From Glycine soja (Eukaryota; Streptophyta; Magnoliopsida; Fabales; Fabaceae), in the NCBI RefSeq assembly GCF_004193775.1, contig NC_041011.1, forward strand, positions 16,214,201 through 16,278,200: a stretch of 64,000 nt of DNA. Direction: 5' to 3'. Position numbers and translations under genes: made by a program. Positions within the stretch are counted from its first letter, which is position 1. Each line of letters starts with the position of its first letter. The notes beneath the pieces are model-generated. The model had not been told where the DNA came from. It saw only the letters and a list, made by a program, of their open reading frames with translations, and made no database searches. Shown here one piece after another: positions 4,293 through 59,812 of this stretch.

Positions 4293-5146
4293 GTAAGGAG
4301 TTATTTTTTTTTTTTTAAAAAAAAAGAAACTCTTCCAAGGAACTAGAAAAAGGACATTATACACCTTTTCTTCATCAATAATTTGTCTTGAATCATGAAC
4401 ATGGCTGCTTCAAATTTTCAATTCCTCATATTTGGGTAGGTTGAAATCGGACGGTGAAGCTGATTGCAACCCCTCACATATTTCTATTCATTTGCATGCA
4501 CAATATATTTATTATATATATACTTGGCAATTCTTTTGTATTGTGATAGTAATTATTTCAACAAGGTGTAATTGATACACCAACACATATACGGGCTTGC
4601 CCAATTTGTCTTTGTTTTGATAGTATGATGTAACTTTATTTATTATTTTTCTTTTTTCTATTCATCAAAGTGAAGTATTGTAATGACTCAAATTTATTAT
4701 TTTTACCAGCACGACGTGCCCTTTTTTCTTATACCTTTTTATTATCTCAACTAATTTGCGGTAAGTCTAGTACATTAACACAATTTCGTGAATATATGTT
4801 CTCCTTGAAATGTAGAAAATCATTCATTTACACAAGTAGAAAACAATTGAAAATTGTGGCTGGTTTCCTATTATTCTAAATATACAACATACAAAACTTA
4901 TTTAAGTGCATGATCTAATTCATATAGTAATGGGACTCAAAATCGAGGCATTTTTAATATTATATTTTAACCTGTCATTTTTAAATATTTAAAATATATA
5001 TATATTTTTAAATACTATTTATATATCTTTGAAGTGTTTAGTTAAATAAAACTATTGACTCAAATATTAAAATTAATAAAAGTATTATTGTTAAATCAAA
5101 TTAATGACCAATACTCATGTTGTATTAGTGTCAATAAGGTATTAGT
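4293..5146. other. AT-rich intergenic stretch
   Basis: No coding exon, RNA gene or repeat boundary was recognised here. A 69-codon ORF at 4670-4879 has no recognisable similarity and lies in AT-rich sequence. Confidence 0.5.
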
Positions 5147-42202: not shown

Positions 42203-42213
42203 TGTCACATTCA

Positions 42214-42600
42214 GGCAAATTGCCTAAAAGACCCCTTTTATAAACTTATTCTTGAAATAGGGTCTTTTTAGAACTAATTCTGGCATGGTGCTCTTTTTAA
42301 CGTAAGTTGCATGCATAAACCATGCAAATCGCCATTGGCAATGACGAGTTCGTTGCGGATTGGACATGTGGAACGCAAACCGCCAACGGTGTTGGCGACT
42401 TCCCTGAACGTGGCATCTCGCCACTTCCATTGGCGACACAGCTAGTGGTTCTGAAACCGCTAGTTTGACTGGCGAGTTTCTGAAACCGCAAGGCTACGGT
42501 GCAGGAGCAGGAGCTCCAGTGGTAGGGGTGCAGTGCAGAGCGGCAAGTTTGACTTCTTGGGCTTTGGTTATCGCCATTATTGCTGGCGATTTAAGCTCCA
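42214..42600 (+). repeat. left terminal inverted repeat of the MULE
   Basis: It matches the reverse complement of 51300-51710, with indels. It is rich in small hairpins around GGCGA/TCGCC, for example CCGCCAACGGTGTTGGCGA. Confidence 0.9.
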
Positions 42601-42759
42601 GTGGTGGATTATAAAATCCACTTCAACGAAGGCGCTGGAGTAAATTGGTACTTGGTAAAAAAGTGAGCTTTGAGTTTTGACGGAGAAAACTTTGTGGCGA
42701 GAAGGAGAGGCTTCATTTTTTTTTGCTTCGTGTTCTTCCAAATTTCTGAAAATAGTAAG

Positions 42760-43950
42760 TTATTTATTTAATATTTTGTGTCTTTTATTTATTTAGATGT
42801 TTCTGTTAAATTAATTTTGTATAGTTTAGTTTTAGTTCTTATATATAATGAAATAGTTTTAGATACTGTAACTTATTAATTTTGTATATTTTAGTTTTAG
42901 TTCTTATTAATTAGTTTTAGTTATTGTATAGTTTAGGTTTAGTTTAAATTTTATATATTACGTTAATTTTAGTTATTGTAAGTTCTTAGTATGTTAATTA
43001 GTTTGAATGTTAATATTAATTAGTTTTAGTTATTATATTTAGTTTAAATTTTATATATTACATTAGTTTTAGTTATTGTAAGTTATTAGTATGTTAATAT
43101 TATTTAGTTTAAATGTTAATATTAATTAGTTTTAGTTATTGTATAGTTTAGGTTTAGTTTAAATTTTATATATTACGTTAGAACGTTATTATGGGTATGG
43201 TATTTATTTTTAGTTAGAATGTTTGTATGGTATTTATTTAGTTTGTATGGTATTATTAATGTTATATATATTGCTTAAATTTTTGTTTCCATAATAATTT
43301 TTGGATTTATTATAATTTATTTGTATAATATATGTTATTTAATTTAAATTTTATTAATTAGAAAAAAATTGGTCATTTATTTAAATTTATGTATGTATTT
43401 TAATTTTTAATTTTGTTATTTGTAGAGTATTTTAGTTAGTATTTTAAGTTTTGCATGTATTTTAATTTATTTGGATATTATATTTAAATTTTATATATTA
43501 CGTTAGTTTTAGTTATTGTAAGTTATTAGTATATTAATTAGTTAGATTGTTAAAATTATTTAGTTTGAATGTTAATATTAATTAGTTTTAGTTATTGTAT
43601 AGTTTAGGTTTAGTTTAAATTTTATATATTACGTTAGAACGTTAGTATAGGTATGGTACTTATTTTTAGTTAGAATGTTTGTATGGTATTTATTTAGTTT
43701 GTATGGTATTGTTGATGTTATATATATTGCTTAAATTTATGTTTCCATAGTAATTTTTGGATTTATTATAATTTATTTGTATAATATATGTTATTTAATT
43801 TAAATTTTATTAATTGGAAAAAAAATTTGGTCATTTATTTAAATTTATGTATGTATTTTAATTTTTAATTTTGTTATTTGTAGAGTATTTTAGTTAGTAT
43901 TTAAAGTTTTGCATGTATTTTAATTTATTTGGATAGTATATTTAAATTTT
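42760..43950 (+). repeat. AT-rich region with a 456-bp tandem duplication
   Basis: Two copies spaced 456 bp apart share ACGTTAGAACGTTA (43175 and 43631), GTATGGTATTTATTTAG and TTGCATGTATTTTAATTTA. It lies between the left TIR and the plant-mobile-domain gene, a promoter or 5' UTR position. Confidence 0.8.
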
Positions 43951-44158
43951 ATTATTTGTATCATATATTTTGTTGTTCAAATTGATGTATATTGTTATTT
44001 ATTTAGATTTTAATTATTTGGTATGTATATTTAATTAATTTGTTGTAAGTGTACTAAATTTTTTAATGTTAAATTTTTGTTGTCAATTTTTTGTATTAGA
44101 TTTTATTTTACAGTATCAATGACATATTCGTCGTCATGTTCATCAAGTATACAAATTT

Positions 44159-46382
44159 AAGTCGGGTCCAATAGATGGAGATGTTTTATGGATGCAACCT
44201 AAGCATGTTTCAGAACATGTTTTGTTTGGAATGGAGAACCAGACAGAAAATTACACATCAGACGAGTTGTCCCCATTTATCAAGGACAAGAAGAAATACC
44301 AGAGGAAATTATTCCTCTGCTTTGCCAATCTGGTTTTTATTGGATAATGAAGATGGGCTACCTAAAAATAAATGCGTCATTAATTACTGTCTTGATTGAA
44401 AGATGGAGGCCCGAAACACATACGTTTCACATGAGATGCGGAGAGTGTACGATTACTCTTCAAGATGTCTCTGTATTATTAGGTCTGCATGTTGATGGGC
44501 ACCATTAATTGGTCAAACTAATCTTGATTGGGCTGAATTATGTGAAGAATTGTTGGGAGTCAGACCACAGGAAGGTGAACTTCAAGGCAGTGTGGTTAAA
44601 TTAAGTTGAGTAGCTTACCATTTTTCACAAATAAATAACCATGATGGTAACGTAGAACAACTACAAAGGTTTGCCCGTGCATGGATCCTTAGATTCATAA
44701 GAGGTGTCCTTTTTGTTGACAAAATCAGCAGCAAAGTTTCCCTAAGGTACCTGCAATTTTTAGGTGACTTTGAATAGTGCAGCACGTATACATAAGGACC
44801 TACCGTGCTTCTTTTTTATATAAAAAGATGTACAGCACCACCGATTACAAAATTAAATCGATCGGAGGTATGTGCATCTTAATCTAAATATGGGCATGGG
44901 AACGATGCACGACTTTGGCTCCAAAGAGGAATCCTCCCGTAATAGAAAATAAACCACTCGGACACAGGTTAGTTGTTTAAAAAATAAGATTTCATTTGAA
45001 AATAATTAATAATGTAATGCGTCGTCACTGATGATTTCATTTTTAGGTGGCTGCGACGTGGAAATCAGCATATTGGCAATGATGATATGCTAGTTTTTCG
45101 TCGCAAATTGGATATCATGAAACGACATGAGGTAAGAAGATCGTAATGTATTCGTTAAATAATAAATAAAATGTCATGCTTAAGTGAAAATTAAAAAGTG
45201 TGTTATTGTATGTAGTTTATGTGGGAGCCTTACACAACAACTGTTATGTCAGCGTTGCCTCCAATTTATTTGGTTGGTAGTGTAGCGTGGTGCGCGGTGG
45301 TGCCACTCATTTGTTTCCATGTTGTTGAGTGGCACCAACCCGATAGAGTGTTGCGACAATTTGGTATGCAACAACCTATTTCCGAGTGTCCTTCGCAACC
45401 ACTGAATATCCATGGCCTAACGCTAAAAGGCAAACAAGATGAAAATTGGTTCCAGCTGTTGGCCCCAATGATCAGTCAATGGAACAATCGAGCTGAGTTT
45501 AGGGTCGACATTTATCCTCGACAGAAGGGCCTATTGAGTTTTAACTCCGACTACATGGTCTGGTATAGGAGAAAAACGAAGATGTTCGTCGACCCAAAGA
45601 ATGCAAACACAACTACATTGGTATTTATTTCTTTTTGAATATTTAACTTCAAATTATTTTTTAAAGCATCGGCATTAATTTCCTGACCCTAATAATTGCA
45701 GGCTGAAGTTGCGAAGACATTACAGTATATGGTGTCACCACAAGGGAGGAACACATGGACAGTTGATGATCTCGTGCCTTATGTGGAGAAGATAACGATT
45801 TTATCCGAAGAGCAAGAGAGAATCTCTGAGCCTGTGGCACATGGTCCAACATCAGAGCGTCGATTTCCACCACAAGAGTTTCACATGCTTTAGTCAAGTG
45901 TTGAAACTCGAGGTTTTGGCAGACAAAGGGAGGTTGTTGAAGCGGAAGAATTTTCCCAACAAATGGAGCAACGTGGCCATAGAATGTATTACACGCCACC
46001 AACATTTTCTCAATATCCTTCACAGATGTATCAATATCATTTCCAAGGTCATGACACTGATATGTCTGCAAGCGAACATTCGTTTGGTGGTGTTGTGGAA
46101 ACACACCCTCATTTTTCATGGCCGACTATGACCCATTCACAACAACATGATCCCCCAATGGCAACACCTAACGCCCCATTGGCTTCGCAATGGAATGTAC
46201 TCGGAGCAATACCTGATATGGGTGACTTATTAGGTGTTGATTTGCGTCACGAGTTTTCTGTTGAGGCTGAGCAAGTAGAAGCGGGGAGACAGCGCGGCAG
46301 AAGAAATCATGATTGTCAAGCCCGAAGATGGGATCGACCATGTGGCACATCCTCATGGCATCACGGACACCATAATGAATGA
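44159..46382 (+). pseudogene. plant mobile domain (PMD/MAIN-like) gene in the MULE
   Basis: Blocks 44159-44967, 45047-45131, 45216-45620 and 45702-46382 have GT..AG borders. They encode a plant mobile domain protein of the MAIN/MAIL or phosphatase-7 long-form homolog type: GPIDGDVLWMQPKH, ITVLIERWRPETHTFHMRCG, TITLQDVSVLLGL, NNHDGNVEQLQRFARAWILR, PPIYLVGSVAWCAVVPLICF, VVEWHQPDRVLRQFG. A proline/glutamine-rich tail ends at the stop 46380-46382. PMD proteins occur both as host genes for genome stability and inside transposons; their role in transposition is unclear. Breaks are frame changes near 44275 and 44500, TGA near 44607 and TAG at 45891-45893. Splicing of the 5' part is inferred. Confidence 0.82.
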
Positions 46383-46696
46383 TTTTGATGTCTCTGTTTA
46401 AATTTGTTGTTGTATGTTTGTAATTTGAATTTGACACTTAATTTATCGTATCTCATTTATTAAGCCTTACTAATGGATACAGTTTATGTCGCGCATCAAA
46501 CTAGAATAATAAATAAAGTTTAAAAAAAAACTAAAGTAGACAAACGAAAATAAGTAATGGTACTAACTAACGATGAACACCAATTTCAACTTCTAAATGT
46601 AATTTTATTTCATTACATGCATCAGTCTGAACTTTTTCCACTTACCTATTTGCTTCAATTATAAGGTTCATCATCAGAAACTGCATAGATTTCAAG

Positions 46697-47165
46697 GGTT
46701 AGCGTTTACGATTTATGGCTTACGCCTAAGGTTTAGGGTTTGGGGTTTAGTGTTTAGGGTTTAGGGTTTATGGTTTAGTGTAAGGGTTTATGATCTAGGG
46801 TTTAGGGGTTTAGGGTTTATGGTTTGGGGTTTGTGGTTTAGGGTTTATGGTTTGAGGTTTAGGGTTTAGGGTTTAGGGTTTAGGGTAAGGGTTTATGATC
46901 TAGGGTTTAGGGGTTTAGGGTTTAGGGGTTAGTGTTTAAGGTTTAGGAGTTAGTGTAAGGGTTTAGGATTTAGGGTTTATGGTTTAAGGTTTAGGGTTTA
47001 TGGTTTAGGTTTATGATCTAGGGTTTAGGAGTTTAGGGTTTAAGGTTTAGGGGTTAGTGTAAGGGTTTGGTATTAAGGGTTTAGGGTTTAGGGTTTTAGG
47101 ATTTAGGGTTTAGGGTTAGGGCTTAGGATTTAGGGTTTAGTGTTTTTTGCGTAGGGCTTAGGGTT
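46697..47165. repeat. degenerate telomere-like (TTTAGGG)n array
   Basis: About 470 bp of GGTTTAGGGTTTAGGGTTTA-type sequence with variants (GGTTTATGG, GGTTTGGGG, AGGGTAAGGG), lying between the convergent PMD and transposase genes. It is the plant telomere motif but is interrupted and internal to a transposon, so it is an interstitial array, not a chromosome end. Confidence 0.92.
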
Positions 47166-47344
47166 AAACTACAGAAGTCATGAATAGACTGCTACATTCC
47201 AAAATAAGTAATGTTAAAGGAATAACGAAACTACACAAACCAAAATATGTAATGTTTCTAACTAACGATTTCATTGAAGACCACAAAGTAAATACATTCA
47301 AGACAACTTAAACCAATACAAGTCAGTCGTGTAGCATACATAAA

Positions 47345-50118
47345 TCAATTAAATGAACAACTCCCACAGTCAAATTGCATTGGACATCGATGCCTGTTGT
47401 GCCCTTCTGCTCCACATTTACTACATTTTTGTCGGTGCTCAGATGGTTCGAGCCAATCCATCTCATTCCTTATCCTTGTTGATTTTGGCCGACCTTTCAC
47501 ACGAATTGTAGTTGGGTTAGGGATAAGTGTCCATGTGTCATCAGAAGGAGGAATAGCCGCTTCATTCCCAAGAGGCCACCATTGTGCGTAGTAAGCTTTT
47601 AAGATGTGCTCATTTGTGTAAACAGCATCTATATATTGGTAGTAGTTCATGCTCACGTAACCACAAGCTGCAATAATGTGTGAACATGGATAGTGAAGCG
47701 CATAATACCTTCCGCATTGACAATGATGACCATTCAAGTTAACTGCCCACTTTTGTCCGCCACGTTGCGTTATAGGGTTGAAGGTCTCCTCTACTTCAAA
47801 CCTTGTGAAGTGGATATCATACACACGAACGATGTGCGAACAAGCTTGTTCTTAATTTTTTCTAAGTTCTTTAACAAGCTTAGAACAATATACTTGTCCT
47901 TCATTTAACTGTCTTTGGACTTGCCGGCCACGATCAACAAAGTACTTTCGACACCTACTGTATGTTGATTTGACCAACGTTATTATGGGTATGTTGCGAC
48001 AATCCTTCAAAACCTTATCGATACATTCTGAGAGGTTGGTTGTCATGTGACCATATCGACGTCCTTCTCTATCATAAGCCATCATCCATTTTTCCTTTGA
48101 AATGCGATCAATCCATGTTGCTATGGCTGGACTCAGTTGACGAAATTTTTCTAAGTTTTGATAAAAAAAAAATGTGCTTGCACGGAGTGTAACCTACATA
48201 AAATTTGTTAGGAACAACAATTTTAAGTATATATGAAACTTAAATTAACGTGACCATCAAAAATGAAATCTTACCCAATTTCTTCAGCATTTCTTTTTGT
48301 TTGGCATTATTGAATTTGCGATTGAAATTGCTTGCTATGTGTCGGACGCAGTAAACATGATAACCGTGGAGAGGTTGTCAACCAAGTGCTTCGTTAGCCA
48401 CAACAGACTTTATACTCGCGTGATGATCAGATATGAGACAAATACCATTTTTATCTGTGACGTGTTCACGCAAGTGTGCCGAAAACCATGACCACGCTGT
48501 CAACGTCTCACCTTCGACCACGGTGAATGTTAAAGGAAGGACACCACCATTTCCATCTTGTGATGTGGCCATTAAGAGGGTCCCACGGTATATGCCGTAC
48601 AAATGTGTGTCGTCAACTTGTATGATTGGCTTACAATACTTGAAAGCCTCTTTACATTGACCAAAAGTCCAAAACACTCTATGAAACTGACGGTGTTCGC
48701 GACTAACCATATTCCCAATAATAAAATCGTCATGTAGTATTTGAAAATATGATCCAGGAGAATGATTTTGCATGTGTGTTAGCCACGACGACAGTTTCGC
48801 ATATGACTCTTCCCAATCACCATATTCTATTGCAATGGCTTTTTGTTTCGCCAACCAAGCTTTTTTGTACGACACCTTGTACACAAATTCACTGTTAATC
48901 CTCTCTTGAATCAAAGAAACTTTTATTGATGGATCTTCTCTGATCATGCCTGTCAATAGAATAACAAAATTTAAATGACAATTAATGTTAAAGAATAGCA
49001 TAATATGAACATAAAATACGTACCTACTACCCAAGTGGCAATTAAATCTGAATCAAGCTTCTTGTGATCTTGTGTCATGGTCATATTGAGACATGTGTGT
49101 AGTTCACCCCATTGTGTGACTTTCCATGAATCAAATTTTTTAGATAAAATTGCCCTCATATAGAAAGGGCAAGGACACTCTGCGCTTTTATTTAAGCAAC
49201 AAACGACATACTTGTTCAATTTGCTTTCAACCACTTTGAAACTTTGATGCACCTTCATAACATATTGTTTGACTGCATTCTTGACCGCATCTTTACTATC
49301 AAAATCCATGCCAACATATAATTCTTGGCCAACATTAAAACTCGATGGCATCTCCAAACCACAAATGTCCTCCTCATCAGGATGACTTCAGTTGATATTA
49401 TTATAATGCAAAGCATCATTCCAAAATGGATTTTGAATTCCTTGTACACCTAATAGTCCAAAAAAAAATTTAAACCATACTTATTTAGCATTAAATACAA
49501 TTGTCATCAAATGATAAATGTATTCACGTATTTTTTTAGAGGAAATTATACCTTGTGTTGGGTGAACAATTCTTACTGGTTGAATCATGTCAGTGACTTC
49601 ATCGTCTGTATCAGATATACCGTCAATACTATCATCTTCGTCTAAAGACTCTTCCACGTATGAGTTAGACACAAGATCATCATCATCATCTTCATCACCA
49701 TGTAAATTGCTCACATTTCTTGGCGGTTGCGCCTCATTATTAGATAAATTATTTTCACATGTTGTAAGAGAATTTGCCGAATGAAACATAGAACCATCGA
49801 CCACATCCTTTTCTATGTACAATTCCAAAATTGACATTTGATCTTCTTGTTGAAAACTTTCAAGCATGGTTTCAACATCTTCGTCATCACAAATTTGCAA
49901 CGCAACATATTTTCCAGACACTAAAAATCTACAATTGATAGCAGAAATAATTTCATTATTTTCTAACTTTACCTTATCTCCAATTTTTTTTTCTTCAAAG
50001 CATTAAAACTAATTCCACGTTTAATTTGAATCACTTTTTTACTGCCTTCAAATATTACACCATCATTCTCTTCATATACCCTTCCATCAAAATACAACAC
50101 TGTTATAATCGAATTCAT
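47345..50118 (-). pseudogene. MuDR-type MULE transposase (disrupted)
   Basis: Minus-strand exons are about 50118-49552, 49449-49024, 48949-48275 and 48193-47345, all with GT..AG borders in phase. Domains in order: a PB1-like N-terminus (VLYFDGRVYEENDGVIFEG); an acidic stretch; the MuDR DNA-binding region (LYVGMDFDSKDAVKNAVKQY, CPCPFYMRAI); the MULE catalytic core, with first Asp in IIQVDDTHLYG, second in LISDHHASIKS and likely Glu in NLSECIDKVLKDCRN; a SWIM zinc finger (CQCGRYYALHYPCSH); and a CCHC knuckle (CSKCGAEGHNRHRC). It would cut and rejoin the TIRs. Lesions are an extra A near 49985, TGA near 49388, TGA near 48388, an extra base in the T run near 48165 and TAA near 47853. Catalytic residues remain. 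Confidence 0.9.
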
Positions 50119-51299
50119 GATGTATCTACAAAAACAATATTTTAAATAATTAATCATAATAAATTCAAAATAATAAAATGTAATCACAAAAAGTCCCTTT
50201 ACTGGAACTTCACATTAAAACTTTATTCTAAAAAAATTATTAACTTCAAATAAATATAATGGTAGACACTTAAAAAACATGAACAATTTCAAGGTAGTAA
50301 TTTTAAAGGCAAAATAAACCATAAACGAAGTTAGTATTATAAATAATTAATCTTAACGATCATAACTTCAAAATAAAAAAGGTAATTAAAAAATTACTAC
50401 AAATACATTAAAATAAATATGATGCCACCCAGAAACTTAAAAGTATAAATTTAAAAAGGCAGAACAAAGCATCAAAGAACACTTTCAAAGTACACATTTT
50501 AATTACATCATCAACGAAGTTATTATTATAAAGGCACAGACCATCAACACCAACCTAATCTAATTAAAAAAATACTACACACTTCATATTGAAATTTTTT
50601 TTCACACTAACATACTTACTACAAATAAATATAATGCCAAAAAAAATTATTTTAAACACCATTCAAGTTGAACGCTTATAAATTTTTAACACACACCAAC
50701 AAACCATGAACATCAGCCTAATCTAATTAAAAAATTACAACAACTTCATATTAAAAAAAAATTCACACTCAAAATACTTACTTCAAATAAATATGATGCT
50801 ACAATTTTTTTTTATTTTAAACACAGTTAAAAGTACAATATTCGTCAATTTTTAACACACTAACAAAGCATCAACACCAACCTAATTAAAAAGTACAATA
50901 TTCAGTTAAAAGTCAAAATATTTTTTCCGCAGTCCAAATATTTTCTTGAAATAAAGATGATGACAGAAATTTTTTTATTTTACACAGTACACTTTTACTT
51001 CAACCCATACACAAATTTTTAACACAAACGAACAAGCATATGAGATATAAAACTAATTTATAAAAAAATTAATTCAAAAAAAGATTTGATGTCGCAGTTG
51101 CTTGATTGGGACTTTCGAACCTTCAATGGAACTTTCAAGACTGACAAATTTAAACAAGGAGGCAAATTTGGAGGATTTCGGTAACTTCTCAAGGACATTG
51201 AAACTGCAAGTTTTCAAAACATTGAAGTCGGGATACGTATTTAAAGGCCCTGCCTAAACCACCAAAGCAAGGGGCGAGTCCCCTTTATTTTGCCCAAAT
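50119..51299. other. AT-rich 5' region of the transposase gene
   Basis: It lies between the transposase start and the right TIR. A motif like ACTTCAAATAAATATRATG recurs several times (near 50245, 50400, 50620, 50775). It probably holds the promoter, but no clear TATA box could be assigned. Confidence 0.5.
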
Positions 51300-51710
51300 C
51301 GCCAAAGCTACTGGCGAGTCCCCTTTAGCGTAACTCGCCAAAGCTAGTGGCAACTCCCCTAAGCCCAAGAAGTCAAAGGCTGCAGCCTACACCTGCACGT
51401 CCTGCACCCCCGTAGCCTGCACCCCTGCTGCTGTCCTGCTCCGCAAGTCGCCAATCAAACCAGTAGTTTCAGAACCACTGGCTGTGTCGCCAGTGGAAGT
51501 GGCGATATGCCACGTTCAGTGAAGTCGCCAGCACCGTTGGCGGTTTGCGTTCCACGTGTCCAATCCGCAGCGAACTCGCCATTGCCAATGGCGGTTTGCA
51601 TGGTTTATGTAAGCAGCTTACGTGAAAAAGAGCACCATGCCAGAACTAGTTCTAAAAGGGTCCTATTTCGAGAATAAGTTTATAAAAGGGACCCCTTTTG
51701 GGCAATTTGC
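51300..51710 (-). repeat. right terminal inverted repeat of the MULE
   Basis: Reverse complement of the left TIR with indels. It contains three extra GGCGAGTCCCCTTTA-type repeats near 51260-51360. Confidence 0.9.
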
Positions 51711-51721
51711 TGTCACATTCA

Positions 51722-53041: not shown

Positions 53042-53054
53042 ACAGAGAATTGTG

Positions 53055-53764
53055 ATGAAGAACCATGCATTTGGCGCCCTCTTTCTCTCTACCCTTGTTC
53101 TTCTTGTCTCTACTGCAAAGGGTAAGTGTCCACCCTCCTTTGTTTGTGGGAACCTCGGCACCATGCACTTCCCTTACACTGACACAAAACACCCTCACTG
53201 TGGCCTGTTGGTGATCTATGGCTGCGATGACCGCGACAATGATACCATTAAAACCATTAAGAACAACGGAGCATGGTTTTACATCACACGCGATCAGAAC
53301 AACGGTACCATTTTGTTCAGAGATGACAAACTCCGCACACTCTTGCTAACCAGACGATGTGGAGTCTTCAGCAACAACTACACCAGTTTGGACACCACTT
53401 CTCCTTTCCTTTCACTTCACTTCATGAATCTCAATCTATTCATATGCAACAGCACTCTCAATGTCACCCCTCCTTCTTCAGTCTTTTCCAAATCTACCAT
53501 ATGCAAGGATGAGGACATCTTCTATCGCCCGACTAATATGGATGATTATTATGATTATCATTATCCTTATTTTGAAGCATGTTCGAGGGTTATACTTCCA
53601 ATCAGAGATTCAGAGATTGTACCTGACAATGGAAACCTCTTTGACTATCTATCAGCTGATATTCCTGTCCAAGCAGAGGTGTTTCATGATTGTTCTTCTT
53701 GTTACTATCTTAGAGGAGGCCGGTGTCAACTTGACAACCAAGGGAAGTTCTTCTGTGCTGAAGG

Positions 53765-53807
<43 letters not shown>

Positions 53808-55790
53808 AAAGTTTGTTGCAACTAGTTTCTACTTTCTAAGAAGTGTTTCATGAATTTAATCAATCAGAAATATTATGGATATGATTTTTAAGATAGTTAT
53901 TGTAAAAATTAATCATATATGATAATTTTTTTATTAAATGATAATATAAAATGACTTTACCCTGTAGAGCATATATTATTAACACATTTTATTTGTTGTA
54001 ATTCTGACATTGAATGAAGAAACCAGATCTAAGTAGATCCTTAAATAATATATAGGGGTGAGACTCGTTTAGGAGTCAATCTCTTTATACGCCTTAATGA
54101 ATACATATTAATTAGTACCTTCTAATAAATGTGTATTTTTAATACTATAACTTAAAACTTTTTCATACTAAGACTTGATTCCTACATAAGTGTCACTTAT
54201 AATAATTGATTATTTTAACCGATCTAAATTACCACTTATTTCTAATTATGTTTTTATTGTTATTTATTCTTTTTCATTCCCCATTTTTTTATATTTTCAG
54301 AGAAAACTAGTAAGAAGGAGAAGATAGTGGTAGCAGGTGCAACTTTTTCTACCCCTTATTATATTTGCCAATTATTTGTTTAACTTGGAACCCCACAAAT
54401 AAAACTTGTAAATAATTTGTTAACCTTGTATCATAGTAGGTTAAATTTCATATTTGGAACCCACAAATAAAATTTATAAATAATGTAGAGTGATTGAATA
54501 ACTAAACAAAAAAAGCTGTAGATGTATTGTTGAATTATTCATCTGTGATGGCTCCAGGAAAGGAAGTTTGGTGACTCCTTCTAGCAAAAATAAATAAACA
54601 AATAATCTCTTTCAGATGCGAATATGAAAATAAATAAATCATCATGGAGGGTATGCCTTTTTCTCATTCTGACTTCTTAATGAAATAAACCTACAGCTAC
54701 TTCAGTTGCTGGAGGACTGGGAATTTTGATGGTCTTGGCTTGCATCTTACGAAGATACTATTTTCACAAGAAGAATCCTACTTACCTAATGATTGAGAAC
54801 TTTCTGAAGCAACATGGACACCTTTCAGCCAAAAGGTACAGTTATTTGGAGGTAAAGAAAATGACTAACTCCTTCAAAAACAAATTAGGCCAAGGAGGGT
54901 ATGGCAGTGTATATAAAGGGAGGTTACAAAATGGAAGCCTTGTGGCAGTGAAGATTTTAAGCAAGTTAAAAGGTGATGGAGATGAATTCATCAATGAAGT
55001 GGCTAGTATTAGCATGACTTCTCATGTTAACATTGTCAGTTTACTGGGATTTTGCCTGGAGGGCTCCAAAAGAGTTCTCATATACGAGTATATGCCAAAT
55101 GGATCTCTTGAAAAGTTCATATATGAAGAGAAAGATCCTTTAAAGCATAAACTCACATTGAATTGCAGAACTATGTACAATATCGTCATTGGTGTTGCTC
55201 GAGGATTGGAGTACTTGCACAAGGGTTGTAACACCAAAATCTTGCATTTTGACATAAAACCTCACAACATACTGCTTGATGAGTTGTTTTGCCCAAAAAT
55301 ATCAGATTTTGGGCTTGCTAAAATATGTCCTAGAGAAAAAAGTATTGTATCAATGATGGTTGCAAGGGGAACTGTAGGGTATATTGCTCCTGAATTGTTC
55401 TGCAGAAATTTTGGTGGAGTGTCCCATAAATCAGATGTCTACAGTTATGGAATGATGGTCTTGGAAATGCTTGGTGCTAGAGAGAATAATAATAGCAGAG
55501 TTGATTTTTCAAGTGAAAATTACTTTCCACATTGGATATACAGCCATCTTGAATTAAATCAAGAGCTTCAATTGCGCTGTATTAAAAAACAAAATGATAA
55601 AGAAATGGTGAGAAAAATGACTATAGTGAGTTTATGGTGCATACAAACTGACCCTTCAAAACGACCTGCAATGAGTAAAGTGGTGGAAATGATGGAAGGA
55701 AGCATTAGCTTGTTGCAAGTTCCACCCAAACCTTTCCTTTTTTCGTCCTCAGCCCCTGAATCACAATCAAGCGAGACTTATAGTTATTGA
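53055..55790 (+). CDS. LRK10L-type receptor-like kinase (GUB_WAK/WAK-assoc, non-RD)
   Basis: Three exons, 53055-53763, 54301-54336 and 54697-55790, join in phase to 612 codons. A signal peptide comes first (MKNHAFGALFLSTLVLLVST). A GUB_WAK cysteine-rich ectodomain begins KCPPSFVCGN, followed by a WAK-associated end (CRGGRC-like: YYLRGGRCQLDNQGKFFC). A membrane segment lies near residues 249-268 (SVAGGLGILMVLACILRR). The kinase domain has GQGGYGSV at 313-320, VAVK Lys334, Glu349, HFDIKPHN with Asp434 and DFG at 452-454. HFD instead of HRD makes it a non-RD kinase, a class often tied to plant immunity. The start is the ATG after the signal-peptide context; the GTG just before is not used. It sits at the plasma membrane by inference. 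A 36-bp second exon is unusual but in phase. All key kinase residues are present, so it is probably functional. Confidence 0.9.
53771..53803. repeat. (TA)n microsatellite in kinase intron 1
   Basis: About 33 bp of TA repeat starting 8 bp after the exon 1 donor. Length variation here could affect splicing of intron 1. Confidence 0.93.
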
Positions 55791-56160: not shown

Positions 56161-59100
56161 TTGAGTTCTATTCAAGAAATGGGTTTGGCCAAGTATGAGG
56201 TTGAAAAATTTACAGGGCAAAATGATTTTGGGCTATGGCGATTGAAGATGAGAGCTCTTCTTGTTCAGCAGGGCCTGGTGGAAGCACTTGATGGAGAAGT
56301 CAAACTTGAAAAGATGATGGCTGATGGGGATAAGAAAGCACTACTGTAGAAGGCACACAGTGCAATTATCCTCAGTCTCGGAGACAATGTGCTGAGGCAA
56401 GTCTCAAAGGAAACAACTGCTGCTGGGGTTTGGTCAAAACTTGAAGGTTTGTACATGACCAAATCTTTAGTTAATTGTCTTTACCTAAAGTAGTCTTTAT
56501 ATTCATTTAAAATGCATGAAGATAGATCAGTAGTAGAACAATTGGATTTGTTTAATAAACTAATTCTAGATCTTGAAAATATCGATGTCACTATTGATGA
56601 TGAGGATCAAGCTTTGTTATTGATGTGCTCTTTGCCTAAGAGTTACTCTCATTTCAAAGAGATTTTATTGTTTGGAAGAGACTCTGTTTCTCTTGATGAA
56701 GTGCAGGCTGCTCTAAATTCAAAGGAATTGAATGAAAGAAAGGAAAAGATGTCCTTTAGAAGTGGTGAAGGGCTGACAGTAAGAGGCAAGACCTTCAAGA
56801 AAAATAGTAAATTTGATAAGAAAAAAGCAAAAGCCAGAAAATCAGAAGAATGGTGAAGGAAACATCTTCAAAATCAGATGTTATCACTGTAAAAAGGAGG
56901 GTCATACAAGGAAAGTTTGTCCTGAAAGGCAAAAAAATGGTGGCAGTAACAATAGGAAGAAGGACTCAGGGAATGCTGCAATTGTTCAAGATGATGGCTA
57001 TGAATCTGTAGAGGCACTGATGGTGTCTGAAAAGAATCCAGAAACTAAATGGATAATGGATTCAGGGTGTTCATGGCAACCAAAAGAGTTTTATCAAAAA
57101 CTGAGTTATGGCACATGAGGTTGGGCCATGTAAGTGAGAAGGGGTTGATTGAATTGGCAAAACAAGAGCTGCTATGTGAGGACAGAATGGAAAGATTAAA
57201 GTTTTGTGAACATTGTGTCTATGGCAAAGCCTGTAGAGCCAAATTCAATGTTGGACAACAAGAACAAAAGGTACCCTTGATTATGTTCATGCTGATCTTT
57301 GGGGTCCAACCAAGACTCCCTCTCATTCTGGAGCAAGGTATTTCTTGAGCATTGTGGATGACTACTGAAGGAAGCTGTGGATCTACATTCAGAAAACAAA
57401 AGATGAGGCTTTTGATAACTTCAAAAGCTGGAAAACACTTGTGGAAAACCAAACAGACAGAAAGATCAAGAGGCTTCGTATTGATAATGGTCTTGAGTTC
57501 TACTCTGAACCTTTTAATGATTTCTGCAAAGAGAATGGCATTGCAAGGCACAGGACAGTTGCGGGAACTCCTCAACAAAATGGTTTAGCTGAAAGATTCA
57601 ACAGGACCATTTTGGAGAGAGTGAGATGTATGTTGCTGAATGCAGGATTACCCAAGATTTTTTTGGCTCAAGCAGCAATGACGGTTGTATATCTTATCAA
57701 CAAGTGTCCTTCAACAGCTCTAAACTTTAAAACCCCTGAGGAGATTTGGTCTGGCCATCCATCGAGTCTAAAACAACCAAAGGTATTTGGCTGTGTTGCC
57801 TATGCTCATATCAAGCAAGACAAATTGGAACCTAGAGCTGTCAAGTGCATTTTTCTAGGATATCCTGAGGGAGTGAAAGGGTATAAACTGTGGTGTTTGG
57901 AGGCTGGTTTTAAGAGATGTTTAGTGAGTTGTTATGTTGTCTTCAATGAAGCTGAAATGGCCTACAAGACCAAGCCCAACATGGTTCAGTCCAACACTGA
58001 TCATAGTAAGGAAACTGATTCTGAAAAATTAAATTTTGAGGTGGAGACTGAGGATAAACATGCTGAAACACAAGCTGTTAATTGGCCTCTTGATGAAGAG
58101 AAATCTGAAGAAGAAGAACAAGAAGAAGCTAACTATGTGCTGGCTCGAGACAGAACCATAAGGGAAATCAAACAACCTAAGAGGTATGGATATGCTGATC
58201 TAATAGCATTTGCTCTGGTAGTTGCCAGTGAAGTTTTGGAGGAAGATCCAAAAACTATTAAAGTTGTCTTAGCTAGTAAAGAGAAAGAAAAATGGCTAAG
58301 TGCCACGAATGAAGAGATTAAGTCTCTCTATGACAACCATACATGGGAATTGATTAAAAAAAAACCCTGGTTCTAGAGTGGTCAGCTGCAAATGGATCTT
58401 CAAGAAAAAAGAAGGTATCCAAGGAGTTGAACCAGACAGATTTAAAGCTAGACTTGTTGCTTGAGGATTCACTCAAAAGGAGGGAATTGATTTCAATGAA
58501 GTTTTCTCTCCTGTAGTGAAACACAGGTCAATCAGAATTCTTATGGCTATGGTGGCAGGATTTGATCTTGTGTTAAAACAAATGGATGTGAAAACAACAT
58601 TTTTGTATGGGAAGCTTGATGAGGTGATATTGATGAAACAACCCGAGGGGTTTGAAGTCAAAGGTAAAGAGGATTATGTTTGCAAATTAAACAAATCCCT
58701 GTATGGTCTAAAGCAGTTCCCCAGACAATTGAATAGGAGATTTGATGAATTTATGGCTGACATACAGTTTCATAGAAGTCACTATGATAACTGTGTTTAC
58801 TTCAAATTTCCTTCTAAAGCTGAGTTTGTGATATTGCTATTATATGTTGATGATATTTTGATAGCAAGTAACAACAACAGTGAGGTTGAAAAATTGAAAT
58901 CTGAGCTGAGCAAGGAATTTGAAATGAAGGATTTGGGAGCAGCCAAGAGAATATTGTGAATAGAATTCAAACGGGACATAACTGTATCTGTCCCAGGAGT
59001 TATATCTGAGAAAAGTTCTTGAAAGGTTTGGAATGTCAAATTCCAAACCTGTAACTACTCCTATGTCACAGCAGTTTAAGCTCAGTACAAGTCAAGCGCC

Positions 59101-59812
59101 TAAGACACATGATGATATAATTTACATGGAAGGTATTCCATATGCTAATGCTGTAGGGTCACTGATGTATGCTATGGTATGTACTCGCCCTGACATAGCT
59201 CATGCAATGAGCTTAGTAAGTAGGTTCATGGTAAATCCAGGCAAAGCACATTGGCAAGCCCTGAAATGGATACTCAGATATATCAGAGGATCACGTGGAA
59301 GAGTTATGGTTTATGGTGGAGCTAGGAATAGCAGAAGAACAACTGCTATTGAAGGTTTTCTAGATTCTGATTATGCTGGCTTTTTAGATTCAAGGAAATC
59401 ACTCACAGTATTTGTGTTCACTGCTTTTGGCACTGCAATTAGTTGGAAAGCTAGCCTTCAAAAGGTAGTGGCTTTATCAACCACTGAAGCTGAGTATATT
59501 GCTCTTACAGAAGCTGGGAAAGAATCTCTGTGGCTTGAAGGCATTGCAAAGGAGCTAAAGATACAAAATGAAGTGATCACAATACACTGTGACAGCCAAA
59601 GTGCCATTGATTTATCCAGAAATTCTGTGCATCATGAGAGGACAAAGCACATTGATATTAAGCTGCATTTTGTTAGAGAAGTTATTGGTCAGGGATCAAT
59701 TATAGTCAAGAAGATTTCAACTGATCACAATCCTTCTGATATGATCACAAAGGCTCTTCCAAGTAGCAAGTTTTTCCATTGTTTGGACTTAATTCAGCTG
59801 AAGGGTGATTAA
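56161..59812 (+). pseudogene. copia gag-pol polyprotein (disrupted)
   Basis: Segments in order: gag (KFTGQNDFGLWRLKMRALLV; LPKSYSHFKEIL); a CCHC knuckle (CYHCKKEGHTRKVC) near 56880; a protease site (WIMDSGCSW) followed by a deletion; the pre-integrase zinc region (LWHMRLGHVSEKGL, CEHCVYGK); the integrase core (RIDNGLEFYSEPF, TPQQNGLAERFNRTILE); RT with intact LLYVDDILIAS near 58839; and RNase H ([20 protein letters not shown]). Breaks include TAG at 56347-56349, TAG near 56491, frame changes near 56815-56855, 57060-57350 and 58370, TGA near 58463 and TGA near 58957. Catalytic motifs survive but the reading frame does not. Confidence 0.9.

Follow-up and report, generated by a model that had tools for sequence, protein, structure and literature searches.

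In a 64,000-nucleotide stretch of the Glycine soja genome (assembly GCF_004193775.1, contig NC_041011.1, positions 16,214,201 to 16,278,200; hereafter the window), a Mutator-like element (MULE) carries a plant mobile domain (PMD) gene and a MuDR-type transposase gene in convergent orientation. The window copy is dead and belongs to a large MULE family of Glycine, in which the coding copies hold two convergent genes under selection. As a MULE it is ordinary and of a known kind; yet we propose, on the basis of a predicted structure, that it points to the plant mobile domain as a DNA-binding domain of the VANC type. The evidence for this consists of the anatomy of the element, its recurrence, the co-inheritance of its genes, purifying selection, the match of the predicted PMD fold to VANC21 and arrays of motifs. 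From this evidence we infer that PMD would work as VANC does in VANDAL MULEs, binding DNA in a sequence-specific manner and keeping the element unsilenced and expressed, a reading to which we assign a probability of about 0.5.

Anatomy of the element

Two inverted arms (42233-42483 and 51440-51690; 251 nt each, 90% complementary) enclose both genes, and the flanks place the element termini at 42214 and 51710, with TGTCACATTCA as an 11 bp target-site duplication (TSD) outside both ends. The element thus has the terminal inverted repeats (TIRs) and the 8-11 bp TSD of a MULE. The length of the TSD is given to within one base, since the right end is without the terminal C present in sister copies. 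TSDs of 9-11 bp were found in 5/5 copies, one of them mismatched; for L040 the flanks were inspected by eye. The PMD domain PF10536 lies on the + strand and the DBD_Tnp_Mut, MULE and SWIM domains of the transposase on the - strand, so that the genes stand tail to tail; PF03108, PF10551 and PF04434, all above cut-off, identify a MULE transposase. Coding blocks were projected from L044, whose spliced PMD of 670 aa was the reading-frame reference; they span 44119-46382 (+) for PMD and run 50118-47348 (-) for the transposase. With an uninterrupted relative as reference, the window copy shows 5 in-frame stops plus 4 frameshifts in PMD, and 3 stops plus 2 frameshifts in the transposase blocks. The sequence-only reading had described a two-gene MULE in which a PMD gene and a MuDR-type transposase face each other inside one TIR pair and one TSD. 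This description holds, but both genes are decayed in the window copy, and neither the repeat array ahead of PMD nor the TTTAGGG-like array between the genes had been mentioned. The features of the element are listed below.

42203-42213, no strand: left TSD TGTCACATTCA, read from the sequence
42214-42483, + strand: left TIR, from inverted repeats and at least 40 genome matches
42755-44113, + strand: putative intron in the 5' untranslated region of PMD, with tandem repeats inside, predicted from splice sites alone (GTAAGT donor, TTTTACAG acceptor)
44119-44967, + strand: PMD exon 1, decayed, projected from the L044 exon (81% DNA identity), with a weak PF10536 match in part
45047-45131, + strand: PMD exon 2, projected from L044
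45216-45620, + strand: PMD exon 3, projected (PF10536, E 4.2e-18 on 45219-45635)
45702-46382, + strand: PMD exon 4, C-terminal tail, projected (match 45704-46382), low structure-model confidence
46730-47145, + strand: telomere-like GGTTTAG array (~60 units) in the intergenic spacer, from TRF (Tandem Repeats Finder; element positions 4517-4932)
47348-48191, - strand: last transposase coding block, SWIM zinc finger (domain search, L044 projection)
48273-48953, - strand: transposase block with the MULE domain (PF10551, E 3e-10; L044 projection)
49025-49450, - strand: transposase block with the MuDR family domain (PF03108, E 3e-07; L044 projection)
49550-50118, - strand: N-terminal transposase coding block (85% DNA identity to the L044 block)
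50121-51439, - strand: non-coding stretch with direct repeats from the transposase start to the right TIR (repeat families D6, D18, D19)
51440-51710, - strand: right TIR, from inverted repeats
51711-51721, no strand: right TSD TGTCACATTCA, read from the sequence

Recurrence, co-inheritance and selection

Four other ~9 kb TIR pairs (on C7, C3, C9 and C18) were fetched whole, and all four contain both genes, convergent and in the same order; since 4/4 pairs repeat it, the anatomy is not due to chance. A 10.5-kb pair on C15 also has a transposase and a PMD (L059) between its TIRs, which makes 6/6 long pairs with the window counted, in a tally that omits two more widely spaced TIR pairs, at C18:39.76 Mb (27 kb) and C9:33.72 Mb (30 kb). 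The four short pairs opened (0.9-1.7 kb), among six, contain only TIRs and are non-autonomous derivatives. A second count covered 30 of the 40 best transposase matches, that is, the closest relatives. A convergent PMD lies within 12 kb of 19 of the 40, window included, by matching to partial PMD lists, which can reveal the presence of a PMD only; at one of these loci an extra PMD, pointing the same way, lies 8 kb off, and L040 is one further locus with a convergent PMD. The unbiased part of the count consists of ten transposase loci fetched without foreknowledge, 10/10 of which have a convergent PMD; these PMDs all carry stops and four of them are 50-70% complete. Together with the 4/4 TIR pairs, these loci agree with the constant presence of both genes under the same TIRs on which the sequence-only reading depended.

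The ratio of non-synonymous to synonymous changes (dN/dS) was 0.12-0.16, at dS 0.49-0.67, for the PMDs of L043, L044 and the group L049/L006/L007/L008, the last four compared as PMD loci rather than as whole elements. One stop each was present in the L043 and L007 PMDs and none in the others compared. For the L043-L044 transposase pair dN/dS was 0.12 (bootstrap limits 0.08-0.15), and four PMD pairs had bootstrap limits of 0.09-0.20. Purifying selection acts on PMD as it does on the transposase, so neutral evolution of PMD across copies, which would have told against the sequence-only reading, does not apply. Inside the tight group L049/L006/L007/L008, where changes are very few, dN/dS varied from 0.11 to 0.89 with one value undefined; close pairs of dead copies (window, L039, L040, L041) gave 0.38-0.62 in PMD and 0.47-0.87 in the transposase, a rise expected after insertion. 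The dS values of PMD and transposase correlated at 0.96 over 21 non-independent pairs, and therefore the two genes travel together. The L042 PMD groups with L006-L008 (dS 0.16) and its transposase is nearest to those of the window (dS 0.18) and L043 (dS 0.17; between the PMDs of L042 and L043 dS is 0.42), a discordance in sequence that may reflect exchange between subfamilies.

Many PMD matches in G000 have identical scores and no stops (e.g. C15:9213123; more than 10 places), which suggests a very recent burst of the family. One PMD locus, L045 (C8:36.6 Mb), is at most a candidate for a second MULE with a tandem PMD, as tblastn with the transposase of the window family found no transposase in its 13.9 kb.

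Predicted fold and family of the PMD protein

The predicted structure of the MULE PMD matches the solved fold of VANC21 bound to DNA, and the model has the VANC DNA-binding fold. Among database proteins, the L044 PMD is 100% identical to a Glycine soja entry, with Glycine max entries next at 92% or less or along only part of the protein. MAIL2, a host PMD protein, has the same predicted fold and is 25-28% identical to the MULE PMD. In a tree of 33 PMDs, with MAIL2 as named reference, weak inner and deep PMD-C nodes and no labelled PMD-A among the sequences, the MULE PMDs stand with MAIL2-type PMD-C and far from PMD-B. The tree was rooted on a soybean sequence that we take, by likeness, to be PMD-B. 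With low deep support, MULE PMDs may have arisen by one or several captures, or MAIL2 from a transposon. In the PMD model, pLDDT (predicted local distance difference test) is below 50 at residues 481-670. VIA gives 26 further rows for the MULE PMD, all around residues 435-490. A sequence search of solved structures with PMD returned only weak matches to designed proteins.

A length-gated search of long PMD proteins gave 26 matches, nine of which have MULE-type transposase domains (Glycine, Senna, Vitis, Hibiscus); of eight rescanned, the transposase comes first in seven and PMD first in one, these long proteins being gene models that may join neighbours. Glycine models P0001-P0120, most of which bear the name 'serine/threonine-protein phosphatase 7 long form', are listed with PF10536 alone and fall in clusters of up to 163 members; many are probably transposon genes under a misleading name. 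In Apium graveolens, P0264 combines PMD with PF02902, presumably a ULP1-type peptidase, which we take to be another accessory domain of plant MULEs.

Repeat arrays ahead of PMD

Tandem repeats of varying period and number lie between the left TIR and PMD in 5/5 copies. Over these five copies, TTAGTTTTAG occurs 35 times against a shuffle maximum of 3 and TATTACGTTA 20 times against a maximum of 1; both are always on the PMD strand, with none in the genes or the spacer. The best 9-mer has a smallest per-copy count of 7, compared with 2 at most in 100 shuffles. L042 retains both words despite different repeat units, the partial loci L051-L060 hold 0-5 and 0-3 copies of the two, and L043 has its own 138-bp repeat ahead of PMD. 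A search for 9-mers dense at both element ends in inward orientation gave nothing convincing past AT-rich words.

VANC21 of VANDAL21 binds 9-bp motifs that share one orientation within tandemly repeated intron and upstream DNA; VANC targets differ between VANDAL families (PMC5735166). VANDAL elements and Hiun (PMC5735166, PMC10398659) resemble the window family in combining a MULE with an accessory gene, in the VANC21 fold found in the PMD model and in motif arrays of a single orientation within such intronic or upstream repeats. The likeness of the arrays to those of VANDAL21 is a parallel in design and hence not proof. VANDALs are described with no TIRs or short degenerate ones, unlike the long TIRs here; Hiun additionally carries vanB; the motifs differ, and a PMD profile found no sequence likeness to the VANC21 chain. 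VANC function is proven, whereas that of PMD is proposed.

Proposed function of PMD

By analogy with VANC, the PMD protein would bind repeated short motifs in the non-coding DNA of its own element, probably within the array that precedes PMD. Binding would keep the element unsilenced and expressed, and expression would let the transposase act on the TIRs. The sequence-only reading had suggested an accessory factor for transposition or against silencing; of the two, the VANC21 fold match favours the second, at the level of a model.

Several observations weigh against this proposal. The fold likeness stands at 11% identity and shows no function; the mean pLDDT of the PMD model is 58 (10-residue means of 58-94 over residues 41-340), the two structure models share sequences in their alignments, and a PMD profile search gave no match to the VANC21 chain. 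Recurrent words arise from any tandem repeat, and the top word by summed count falls within the shuffles (41 versus a maximum of 42). Subfamilies L043 and L044 carry 0 and at most 1 of TTAGTTTTAG and TATTACGTTA, and 4/10 partial loci, which fall short of the whole region, have neither; this patchy distribution fits coevolution or no function. The VANC21 motif YAGTATTAY, present once or twice per element in seven elements with no array, was ruled out as the PMD target. Finally, host PMD proteins are described as supporting silencing, not opposing it (PMC5418596, PMC7156037).

PMD might instead be an accessory transposition factor without a role in silencing. It would then assist the transposase, either on the TIRs or during integration, a step for which mudrB of maize MuDR is apparently required (PMC6446971). 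The tail-to-tail layout and the similar selection on both genes would suit such a factor, which a DNA-binding fold would serve equally. In a scan of DNA other than the TIRs, the recurrent words fell in non-coding sequence preceding PMD, and the nearest solved fold is that of an anti-silencing protein; neither point is decisive, and we regard this explanation as unlikely. About equally doubtful is a PMD that mimics host MAIN/MAIL proteins and competes for PP7/PP7L or their targets, weakening silencing in trans or drawing on it for expression. The position of MULE PMDs on the PMD-C side of the tree and the existence of PMD-PP7 fusions speak for it, as does the binding of MAIN and MAIL1 to PP7L and their requirement for transposable element silencing and gene expression (PMC7156037). 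However, no PP7 domain is listed for P0001-P0120, identity to MAIL2 is low, and the host DOWN motif in its MORC1-promoter form, CATGCAGTTT, was ruled out as a target, as it shows no enrichment across the window (6 with at most one mismatch versus 6.6 expected). That PMD is a passively captured host fragment (transduplication) carried by the transposase is highly improbable, for although MULEs capture genes, and the spacer of L044 contains an additional PMD-B-like fragment that shares 87% identity with the C8 locus L005 across 583 nt, selection on copies with zero or one stop and the presence of PMD in each copy opened rule it out.

A broader extension of the VANC-like proposal, which we hold tentatively and as somewhat less probable, is that one fold family takes in both the plant mobile domain and the DNA-binding domain of VANC, with the PMDs of plant MULEs from many lineages as VANC-type, self-specific anti-silencing proteins, the host silencing proteins MAIN/MAIL in the same family and an arms race using one domain on both sides.

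Relation to known systems

The sequence-only reading implied that the layout and the anti-silencing idea were new; both are already known. A table in Dupeyron et al. 2019 (PMC6446971) records a PMD, frequently in antisense, for groups 42 and 45-50 of plant MULEs and names soybean among the MUDR-group hosts. Elements described there (MUDR group 50, MUDRAVI2 group 49 and others) share the SWIM transposase, the long TIRs and, in most, the antisense PMD; the window element has PMD antisense to the transposase inside TIRs, as in groups 47-50. This likeness is one of domains and layout. For MUDR a TSD of 9-10 is listed, versus 11 bp in the window and 9-10 in sister copies. A selection test, a fold and repeat arrays are not among the contents of its passages on antisense-PMD MULEs. 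PMD-C was captured twice by MULEs as fusions, and anti-silencing was speculated upon (PMC5418596), an idea repeated in PMC8616336. Those grass and Amborella fusions (Ikeda 2017, PMC5418596) likewise join PMD-C to a MULE transposase, in single proteins, whereas the window family has two genes on opposite strands. Host PMD-C proteins (MAIN, MAIL1, MAIL2, MAIL3) share PF10536 with the MULE PMD, which lies on the MAIL2 side of the tree; they are genic, and MAIL2, the sole one compared, is ~26% identical.

In maize, mudrA and mudrB are convergent. MuDR resembles the window family in layout, with two genes of which one is a MuDR-type transposase; its partner gene is mudrB and here it is PMD. In tea, 175 phased-siRNA (small interfering RNA) loci lie at PMD genes, and siRNA control of transposon genes was suggested (PMC10673657); by analogy, such control may apply to MULE PMD genes too.

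The VANC21 structure is mentioned as unpublished in a meeting report, and in the passages naming both plant mobile domain and VANC the two folds are not linked. The literature search found nothing joining plant mobile domain with DUF1985. The selection test of MULE PMD and the link to the VANC21 fold were not found in the literature searched, where the broad match set leaves room for an earlier report of the former.

Spacer and neighbouring sequences

A TTTAGGG/GGTTTAG array is present in the spacer of 7/7 elements (window, L039-L044), reversed in L044; five of the seven have 22-60 units of period 7 by TRF. The window spacer contains 22 TTTAGGG and the rest of the window 8, and the 10/10 partial loci have 1-32 per fetched stretch. 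The second PMD-like open reading frame (ORF) of the L044 spacer, of PMD-B type (L044:5727-6608, C15), recurs at 100% identity in L061 (C17), two other copies having only 122-159 nt of it in the stretch fetched. Beside the element, ORFs at 53052-53825 and 54726-55790 resemble, by eye, the ectodomain and kinase portions of a receptor-like kinase, and those at 57441-59812 Copia-type polyprotein fragments (integrase, RNase H-like).

Implications

PMD was a domain of unknown function in a 2021 review (PMC8616336), and contact of the MAIN/MAIL1 complex with chromatin is described as an open question (PMC9899485). Should PMD share the DNA-binding fold of VANC, its function and the chromatin question would both become testable by an assay of the motif that each PMD binds. 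If true, the proposal would suggest that many soybean genes annotated as phosphatase 7 long form, with PF10536 as their sole listed domain, are transposon genes, and why so many plant MULEs keep a PMD gene.
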